Origin: Marivita sp.
GTDB taxonomy: Bacteria; Pseudomonadota; Alphaproteobacteria; Rhodobacterales; Rhodobacteraceae
Assembly (NCBI RefSeq): GCF_017643905.1
Contig: NZ_JAEPMO010000004.1
Span: forward strand, 1-57,536
Direction of reading: 5' to 3'
DNA: 57,536 nt
Below, piece by piece: positions 19,381 through 25,027 of this stretch (positions within the stretch are counted from its first letter, which is position 1; every line of letters begins with the position of its first letter). The notes under the pieces are model-generated. The model had not been told where the DNA came from, searched no databases, and worked only from the letters and a program-made list of their open reading frames with translations. The translations under genes and the position numbers were made by a program.

Positions 19381-23738
<4,358 letters not shown>

Positions 23739-23756
23739 CCACTTTTGTTCTCAAAT

Positions 23757-23771
23757 GTTCTCATAAAGTTC
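23757..23771 (+). promoter_or_regulatory. LexA box (alphaproteobacterial GTTC-N7-GTTC)
   Basis: GTTC-TCATAAA-GTTC is a perfect match to the alphaproteobacterial SOS operator. It lies 53 bp before the ATG of the 44-aa gene and 18 bp after recG. A further GTTC at 23747 and a matching ATGAGAACA at 23792-23800 add to the repeat structure. Confidence 0.7.
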
Positions 23772-23824
23772 TTTACATGTCGTGAAAGATATGAGAACAA
23801 AGAGGCAACAAGGAGGACTTAACC

Positions 23825-23959
23825 ATGATGCACCGGATCAAAACCTCGCTTCACGTTGTCAAAGGCCACAGCACTGCACCGCTTCTTCAGGATGCGCTTG
23901 GGGCGATGTCTTTGGTTGTGATGCTGGTTGCGGCGTTGCATCTGCCGGTTCTTGTCTGA
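23825..23959 (+). CDS. Small single-pass membrane protein behind a LexA box
   Basis: A 44-codon gene with a textbook AAGGAGG ribosome site nine bases before ATGATG. The product has a basic, polar N-terminus (MMHRIKTSLHVVKGHSTAPL) and a hydrophobic C-terminal stretch (about residues 25-44, ALGAMSLVVMLVAALHLPVL), so it should be a single-span inner membrane protein. The strong translation signal, a perfect LexA operator upstream and a strong terminator downstream (24088-24121) define a compact transcription unit. Caulobacter SidA, a very small LexA-controlled membrane inhibitor of division, is a functional parallel, not a sequence homologue I can demonstrate. I recall similar small proteins in other Rhodobacterales. 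Confidence 0.8.
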   Translation: MMHRIKTSLHVVKGHSTAPLLQDALGAMSLVVMLVAALHLPVLV

Positions 23960-24087
23960 CCTGTTACCTTTTTCTGCCTGCGTGTTTTGCCTGATCGCTC
24001 ATCCGCATCCTGTCCCAAAAGATGCACCTGTCCCAGAAGGTTGCCTGCCTTCAGAGCGATGATGGCCCCCAACGAACACGTCACTGA

Positions 24088-24121
24088 CCGCCGCCTTCTT
24101 TTGAAGTGCGGCGGTTTTTTT
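24088..24121 (+). terminator. Rho-independent terminator
   Basis: CCGCCGC (24088-24094) pairs with GCGGCGG (24108-24114), extended by CTTC/GAAG inside, followed by seven T. It ends the small-gene transcript and sits 22 bp before the stop of the convergent NifU-like gene. Confidence 0.9.
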
Positions 24122-24143
24122 ATCGGTTGGTAAAATTATGGGT

Positions 24144-24596
24144 TCAGGCGGACTGGGTTTCCGCCAGCTGCGTCACCGCATCGGCGGCGGCTTCCAGCGT
24201 CAGAAGGATCGACGCGTGACGGTTCTTGAACGCCACCGCCGGGCGCAGCACCTCGAGCCCGTCGAAAGGGGCAGAGGGCGTGGGGCCATCTTCCTTGAGC
24301 ATGACGCGCAACTCGTCGCGGGCGCGGGTGATCTGCTCGGGCGTTGTGCCGATGATCGCAGCACCCACGACCGAAGCGGCCGCTTGCCCCAGGGCACAGG
24401 CCTTGACGTCTTGACCGTAGGCCGCGACCTTGCCGTTTTCCAGCGTCACGTCCACGGTCACCGTCGACCCGCAAAGCGGGGAGCGCTTCTTGACCGATGC
24501 ATCTGGCCCGTCGAGCCGGGCGTGATGCGGAATATCCGCCGCCAGTTCGAGGATTTTGCCAGAATAAAGCTTGATCAGATCCGTATCGCCGGACAT
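24144..24596 (-). CDS. NifU/SufU-like iron-sulfur cluster scaffold protein
   Basis: A 150-aa protein of the IscU/NifU N-terminal fold. The first cluster-ligand region is KRSPLCGSTVTVDV and the second is VKACALGQAAASVV. At the position where IscU has its third Cys (consensus IHCSIL), this protein reads RHASIL, so Cys is replaced by Ala. It may bind clusters differently or act as an accessory. The ATG at 24594-24596 gives the normal start. It diverges from hisI with a 68 bp spacer; no suf or isc genes are close. Confidence 0.85.
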   Translation of the reverse strand: MSGDTDLIKLYSGKILELAADIPHHARLDGPDASVKKRSPLCGSTVTVDVTLENGKVAAYGQDVKACALGQAAASVVGAAIIGTTPEQITRARDELRVMLKEDGPTPSAPFDGLEVLRPAVAFKNRHASILLTLEAAADAVTQLAETQSA

Positions 24597-24664
24597 GGCT
24601 TTCCCTTTCGCCGTTCCCTCCATAAATAGGGGACCATGCGGCGGATGCAAAAAGGTTTTTACCG

Positions 24665-25027
24665 ATGCGCTTTGATCCTGCGACTTTGGTCTATAACGAT
24701 GCGGGCCTGATCCCGGCGATTGCACAGGATGCGGCGTCGGGCGAGGTGCTGATGATGGCGTGGATGAATGCCGATGCGGTGGCCAAGACGCTGGCAACCG
24801 GGCGCGTCACCTATTGGTCGCGCTCGCGGCAGGCGTTCTGGGTCAAGGGCGAAAGCTCGGGCCATCTGCAGGAGCTGGTGGCGCTGCGCGTGGATTGCGA
24901 CCGGGATTGCCTGTTGGTGACGGTGAACCAGACCGGGCCCGCCTGTCACACCAACCGGCGGTCGTGTTTCTACACCGAAGTCCAGGATGGTGCGGAAGCG
25001 GAGATCATGGCGCCGATCGAGGCGTAG
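24665..25027 (+). CDS. hisI: Phosphoribosyl-AMP cyclohydrolase
   Basis: A 120-aa enzyme for the third step of histidine synthesis, opening the purine ring of PR-AMP. The metal-binding block is LRVDCDRDCLLVTVNQTGPA followed by CHTNRRSCFY, with the conserved Asp-Cys and Cys residues for zinc and magnesium. The WSRSRQAFWVKGESSGH segment is the substrate-binding signature. It lacks a fused HisE domain. Monocistronic here; a dispersed repeat follows. Confidence 0.96.
   Translation: MRFDPATLVYNDAGLIPAIAQDAASGEVLMMAWMNADAVAKTLATGRVTYWSRSRQAFWVKGESSGHLQELVALRVDCDRDCLLVTVNQTGPACHTNRRSCFYTEVQDGAEAEIMAPIEA

Follow-up and report, generated by a model that had tools for sequence, protein, structure and literature searches.

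Small membrane proteins that stop division during the SOS response occur in several bacterial groups, and they are mostly dissimilar between groups (PMC6851548; PMC4211646). In Caulobacter crescentus, the SOS-induced SidA, a protein of 29 amino acids (aa), interacts with FtsW and FtsN (PMC4211646), and deletion of lexA causes filamentation because sidA is derepressed (PMC12700426). Here we describe a single-gene unit with a LexA-type promoter in a stretch of 57,536 nucleotides (nt) from Marivita sp., contig NZ_JAEPMO010000004.1, hereafter called the window. The unit lies downstream of recG and comprises a 44-codon open reading frame (ORF) for a small membrane protein, followed by a long, structured 3' untranslated region (UTR). 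The protein family is a strong candidate for the SOS division inhibitor of the Rhodobacteraceae, and a damage-induced division stop thereby becomes directly testable in this family.

Like SidA, the window unit is alphaproteobacterial, has a LexA-type promoter and encodes a tiny membrane protein. It differs in the size of the protein (about 40 aa), in its place downstream of recG and in its long structured 3' UTR; it has no clear relative outside the Rhodobacteraceae in our class sample, and the likeness to SidA is one of analogy. YneA, SosA, DivS and ChiZ of Gram-positive bacteria are also single-span SOS proteins with mostly little mutual homology, but their genes lie beside lexA and the proteins have an extracellular portion at the C-terminus, frequently with LysM (PMC6851548). 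The window protein, in contrast, has almost nothing past the span and has recG as neighbour. Two further systems combine a small protein with a functional RNA. TisB of Escherichia coli, paired with IstR-1, is a LexA-controlled, small hydrophobic inner-membrane protein with RNA structure in its message and control at the RNA level; it comes with an RNA antitoxin and with inhibitory structure at the 5' end, whereas the conserved structure of the window unit is in the 3' UTR (PMC11575346). In Rhodobacter sphaeroides, from the same bacterial family as the window, the small ORF ccaF1 is followed by a 3' UTR that yields the RNAs CcsR1-4, but CcaF1 is an RNA-binding protein and the CcsR RNAs are induced by oxidative stress (PMC8625941). 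The window peptide may work like Caulobacter SidA; we class the unit neither as SidA nor as a TisB-type toxin.

The ORF (ATG at 23825, stop codon at 23957-23959) is a real gene, as judged from its homologues. Used as a single query, the protein had matches in 46 of 101 genomes, including all 17 of the same genus (G000-G016). A profile of 32 aligned family members (A1) matched 256 of 295 Rhodobacteraceae genomes, one per genus, a few of them weakly (with E values reaching 0.005). In a second sample, drawn from this family only, it matched 143 of 149 genomes. In a class-wide sample, five of 289 genomes were matched; four are Rhodobacteraceae, and the fifth match is a short stretch inside a long frame. 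The median ratio of nonsynonymous to synonymous substitution rates (dN/dS) within the genus is 0.13 (120 pairs from 16 sequences; L026, two codons shorter, was excluded), and the variable sites in these sequences fall 19, 11 and 37 times on codon positions 1, 2 and 3. A chance ORF is ruled out by this purifying selection. Conservation of the frame had been set beforehand as a test by the sequence-only reading of this locus, an annotation made from the letters of the window without database searches, and both the spread over genera and the dN/dS value show the frame to be conserved. Neither Pfam nor NCBIfam held a family for the 44-aa protein at E<=10, PHROGs and Pfam held none for the 32 profile members at E<=0.01, and a plasmid collection queried with one homologue gave no match. 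As a candidate paralogue in the protein's own genome, a match of 35% identity inside a 436-codon frame (E 0.19) was taken as chance.

For comparison of whole loci, a subset of all homologue matches (the best, plus 20 weak or low-listed ones) provided 158 distinct loci, of which L055, L059 and L176 were dropped as chance or non-homologous, leaving 155. The length of 44 aa given by the sequence-only reading is right for the genus of the window, but most homologues have 40 aa. Five residues, M1, D23, G26, L38 and P41 in window numbering, are invariant across A1. The single C-terminal membrane span suggested earlier agrees with the prediction: the most hydrophobic 17-residue segment begins at residue 28 (mean Kyte-Doolittle (KD) value 2.46), and a 17-residue stretch with KD >= 1.6 is predicted in 155 of 155 proteins.

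At L165, L166, L167 and L328, the proteins are strongly diverged and end in LWLPAIL or LWLPALA, while the box is kept. Given these loci, the protein family may be more variable than its profile shows.

The upstream part of the locus is laid out as follows.

21648..23738, + strand: recG, upstream neighbour in conserved synteny, outside the transcript (ORF list; TIGR00643 match at G000:C103:21744-23624).
23747..23771, + strand: distal operator, GTTC half-sites at 23747, 23757 and 23768 (spaced N6, then N7), with the exact LexA-type box at 23757-23771.
23772..23777, + strand: TTTACA, probable -35 element abutting the box (TTTAC comes after the box in 136/153 loci).
23791..23798, + strand: ATGAGAAC, probable -10 region with an inverted LexA half-site (columns 77-99% conserved in 147 promoters).
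23795..23809, - strand: imperfect, putative proximal operator GAAC-N7-CAAC, inverted, at conserved spacing.
23810..23816, + strand: Shine-Dalgarno sequence AAGGAGG, read from the sequence.
23825..23959, + strand: 44-codon ORF for a small membrane protein, predicted C-terminal span from about residue 28 (ORF list, homologues, selection).

The exact box GTTC-N7-GTTC, GTTCTCATAAAGTTC, ends 53 nt before the ATG. By itself the box pattern is at chance level and proves nothing, because the window holds four copies where 1.87 are expected, four being attained in 12 of 100 shuffles, and the genome holds 167, against 146 of the reversed pattern. Its position, by contrast with these counts, is conserved: an exact N7 box lies within 150 nt upstream of the ORF in 153 of 155 loci. 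In the controls the pattern occurred neither in the first 150 nt counted from the start codon nor in another 150 nt taken farther upstream, which are mostly recG, and a reversed CTTG pattern was absent from all 155 loci. Other half-site spacings occur in 0-7 of the 155 loci, except N6, found in 139, which reflects the third half-site. The two loci lacking the N7 box, L052 and L157, have their GTTC half-sites at N6 spacing, which suggests lineages whose LexA operator spacing shifted by one base. At L052 a GAAC pair is N6-spaced as well.

The sequence-only reading, which had also placed the box, the ribosome site, the 44-codon gene, the terminator and recG as found here, described a single perfect LexA box. 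The exact box is present, but the site is larger, a strongly conserved module of about 65 bp with three GTTC half-sites and GAAC-N7-CAAC. The consensus of 147 aligned promoters reads TTTGTTCnCAAATGTTCTCAAAAAGTTCTTTACA-(about 11 nt)-AnATGAGAACAAAGnGGCAACAA; the half-sites reach 91-100% conservation, the linker positions less. In 131 of 153 loci, a GAAC is located exactly 23 nt past the box. Of the 151 loci with a GAAC downstream of the box, 124 have a CAAC spaced N7 from the first such GAAC. Distal and proximal operators would thus lie around a promoter formed by TTTACA as -35 and ATGAGAAC as -10, the latter assigned from the Caulobacter consensus. The lexA gene itself has GAAC-N7-GAAC at -48 in nine of nine same-genus genomes examined, that of the window included, and a box in two of three genomes examined outside the genus. 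By its sequence the unit belongs to a LexA-type regulon; LexA binding and induction by DNA damage are strongly indicated, as far as sequence alone can support them.

The promoter is specific to this gene family. A scan of GTDB genomes for the composite promoter returned at least 117 stretches, of which 80 were listed. Among these 80, 79 lead into a homologous ORF, and the slice of the eightieth stops 32 nt past the promoter. The listed matches are titled Rhodobacteraceae or unresolved Alphaproteobacteria or Rhodobacterales, and include Ruegeria, Roseobacter, Sulfitobacter, Celeribacter, Paracoccus and Rhodovulum.

The location downstream of recG is also conserved: recG precedes the ORF in the same orientation in 152 of 155 loci, usually by 85-175 nt. 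In a class sample of 53 genomes with recG, 30 recG loci were compared. A box was present within 300 nt downstream of recG in both Rhodobacteraceae loci, and in none of 28 loci from other families (one locus each, 300 nt downstream of recG, one of them with 261 nt only). Furthermore, 20 of the 39 Rhodobacteraceae genomes without a profile match were examined; they gave 15 recG loci, 14 of them usable (all but L326). Eight of the 14 (L316, L318, L322, L323, L325, L327, L328 and L329) have the box and a diverged small hydrophobic ORF, and in L330, judged by eye, GAACAAAACAAGAAC is accompanied by a short hydrophobic ORF.

With these results, the idea that ORF and box are adjacent by chance has a negligible probability. 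The chance-level frequency of the box pattern in the window's genome would allow it, but it is refuted by conservation: the spread of the family, the specificity of the promoter, the recG comparison, the selection on the protein and the near-constant presence of the box before the homologues. The comparison thus supports the earlier proposal of a LexA-type unit with a small single-span membrane protein downstream of recG. Lack of the box before orthologues had been named there as a refuting result, and the orthologues do have it. The structured 3' UTR and the multi-site promoter module are additions to that proposal.

Downstream of the ORF, the following features were found.

23960..24121, + strand: structured 3' UTR (matched over 23968-24121 by covariance model R1 with E 2.3e-10).
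23974..23982, + strand: CTGCCTGCG motif shortly past the stop codon (CTGCCTG is enriched in UTRs).
23980..24080, + strand: closing stem, formed in the minimum free energy (MFE) fold by the arms 23980-23987 and 24073-24080 (folds; cross-genome arm permutation test).
24005..24025, + strand: hairpin GCATC/GATGC with CTGTCCC in the loop (folds; CTGTCCC is enriched in UTRs).
24028..24034, + strand: another copy of CTGTCCC, left unpaired by the MFE fold and without variation among the 17 sequences of the genus alignment A3.
24036..24052, + strand: hairpin GAAGGT-TGCCT-GCCTTC (folds).
24088..24121, + strand: intrinsic terminator CCGCCGCCTTC..GAAGTGCGGCGG and T7 (folds; terminator in 151/155 loci).

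The terminator consists of a stem at 24088-24114 and a T-run at 24115-24121, as seen in the fold; a simple terminator scan did not list it. Across the homologous loci, a terminator lies within 320 nt past the ORF in 151 of 155, and the UTRs have a median length of 169 nt. Two motifs recur in these 151 UTRs: CTGCCTG is present in 120 and CTGTCCC in 109, where mononucleotide shuffles lead one to expect 2.5 and 4.7, and the first CTGCC is mostly within 20 nt of the stop codon. In total, the UTRs hold 473 copies of CTGYCY. The UTR body without the terminator folds better than dinucleotide shuffles, with a median z of -2.27 and 84 of 133 bodies of at least 80 nt below -2.

The closing stem was compared across genomes by exchanging its arms. 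In this test, 116 of the 151 UTRs qualified, and 108 were kept after thinning at 80% identity of both arms. Arms pair with their own partner at -24.9 kcal/mol, against -16.8 kcal/mol with the arms of other genomes, and none of 10,000 permutations was as good; the own partner was within the best 5% in 64 of 108 UTRs. Relatedness may inflate this result, the thinning being light. A naive MAFFT alignment of 43 UTRs was uninformative, with alifold returning just a short outer stem and the terminator; therefore the subsets A2 and A3 were aligned. In A2 (20 sequences), 13 of 29 pairs vary on both sides, against 4.6 in shuffles, and none of 500 shuffles was as good, although the structure was taken from A2 itself, which favours that score. 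Six of the seven pairs in helix 2 of the closing stem change on both sides, and slid versions score far lower. Thus covariation supports the closing stem as a conserved RNA fold.

A covariance model built from 20 sequences (R1) and searched with strict filters matched 38 of 61 Rhodobacteraceae genomes, once each and always beside such a gene. Of these matches, 29 adjoin a listed homologous ORF, the one in G017 follows recG and a diverged ORF, and eight were confirmed by inspection of the sequence. Outside the family, two of 39 genomes gave weak, short matches (E 0.003 and 0.007), which were taken as chance. Rfam 15, searched with positions 23000-25000, had no match in the UTR and one chance-level match in recG (E 0.52). 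Most likely, the 3' UTR serves as a regulatory element or gives rise to a small RNA that is produced along with the protein; the role of such an RNA is weakly indicated. If it works as RNA, it would be a conserved structured RNA from a LexA-type promoter, without a match in Rfam.

This RNA could even be the main product. In that case, a LexA-controlled small RNA derived from the 3' UTR, with its CUGYCY repeats, would act on other mRNAs or titrate an RNA-binding protein, and the peptide would be accessory, similar to the ccaF1/CcsR1-4 arrangement. The covariation of the closing stem, the repetition of the motif across UTRs and the widespread terminator would fit this explanation. The protein is, however, under clear purifying selection, and it is commoner (256 of 295) than the RNA model (38 of 61, for a 20-sequence model with strict filters). 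In addition, the RNA has no known target. The CcsR motif is CCUCCUCCC and differs from CUGCCUG/CUGUCCC. An RNA with an accessory peptide is, in our view, unlikely.

Next to an RNA as the main product, a TisB-like function is the chief alternative. LexA derepression would then release a hydrophobic peptide that lowers the membrane potential and brings damaged cells into dormancy, with RNA structure controlling translation. LexA-type control, a tiny hydrophobic protein and a structured mRNA are all present at the locus and are traits of TisB (PMC11575346). Yet the near-fixed length, the invariant D, G, L and P in 32 members and the presence in most genera are better explained by a specific partner than by a pore-like toxin. 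Between the recG stop (23738) and the first half-site (23747) there are only 8 nt, and a divergent antitoxin RNA gene would not fit there; a sigma70-like scan of 23700-24700 returned no promoters, and missed the ORF's own promoter as well. Furthermore, pairing between the 5' and 3' UTRs, as in hok or TisB, was unsupported, since 1943 and 1736 of 2000 permutations were as good as the own pairs. The end of the leader (20 nt) with the ORF is without unusual structure (median z -0.15, 7 of 51 below -2). A toxin of this type is a rather improbable explanation.

We lean towards an SOS division checkpoint peptide, with the RNA as a second functional part. According to this model, LexA would keep the single-gene unit tightly shut off from operators that flank and overlap the promoter. 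After DNA damage, RecA would trigger LexA cleavage, leading to one short, terminated transcript. Its product, an inner-membrane protein of roughly 40 residues, would act like Caulobacter SidA or Bacillus YneA, docking with its span onto late divisome membrane proteins (FtsW/FtsI/FtsN class) and delaying septation until repair is complete. The conserved folded RNA of the 3' UTR, with its repeated CUGCCUG/CUGUCCC motifs, would serve as regulatory element or small RNA. We favour such a checkpoint because the multi-site operators, the near-fixed length, the conserved residues in and next to the span and the presence in most genera of one family fit it. Inner-membrane topology and division inhibition are both inferred with moderate confidence.

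Several observations weigh against this model. Division inhibition is proposed by analogy only, and any SOS-induced membrane peptide would look alike. A net charge of +1 or more before the span is found in just 81 of 155 proteins, and given this the predicted membrane topology is not firm. Five of the 14 usable recG loci from profile-negative genomes are without the box, and the unit is thus absent or has moved in some lineages. At the RNA level, the genus alignment A3 has covariation in just 1 of 33 pairs, its stems being nearly constant within the genus. The CTGYCY copies are modestly more unpaired than average, with 263 of 473 having at least five of six bases unpaired, 145 lying largely in hairpin loops and an overall unpaired fraction of 0.45.

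The membrane peptide could also regulate another SOS process rather than division, such as envelope stress, recovery, competence or the release of gene transfer agents. Work on R. capsulatus and D. shibae connects LexA with gene transfer agents, with CckA or with competence (PMC6473078; PMC9638019). At the locus, however, no linkage to gene transfer agent or competence genes was seen, and we consider such a role very unlikely.

Going beyond the checkpoint peptide, it is conceivable, as a tentative extension, that a dual-function SOS transcript is ancestral to the Rhodobacteraceae. It would encode the membrane checkpoint peptide and carry a new class of structured regulatory RNA with CUGCCUG/CUGUCCC that acts in trans. 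If so, one gene would couple division arrest and post-transcriptional control to DNA damage.

In the literature searched, no SOS division inhibitor was found for Rhodobacteraceae (roseobacters, Paracoccus, Rhodobacter), and a small-protein gene downstream of recG was not found named. The main texts of PMC6473078, PMC8625941 and PMC5107571 do not mention recG, their supplements being outside the search. The protein family is new, though of a familiar type, and its combination with a conserved structured 3' UTR is new as well.

Besides recG, the neighbour of the ORF is a gene on the other strand, presumably iron-sulfur-scaffold-like. Near the contig end, GTTCGCTCTTTGTTC at 57420-57434 matches the LexA-type pattern exactly and precedes an ATG by about 50 nt. 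It may be part of a repeated element, because the same 15-mer occurs identically at two more sites of the genome (G000 C131:5046 and C149:69).
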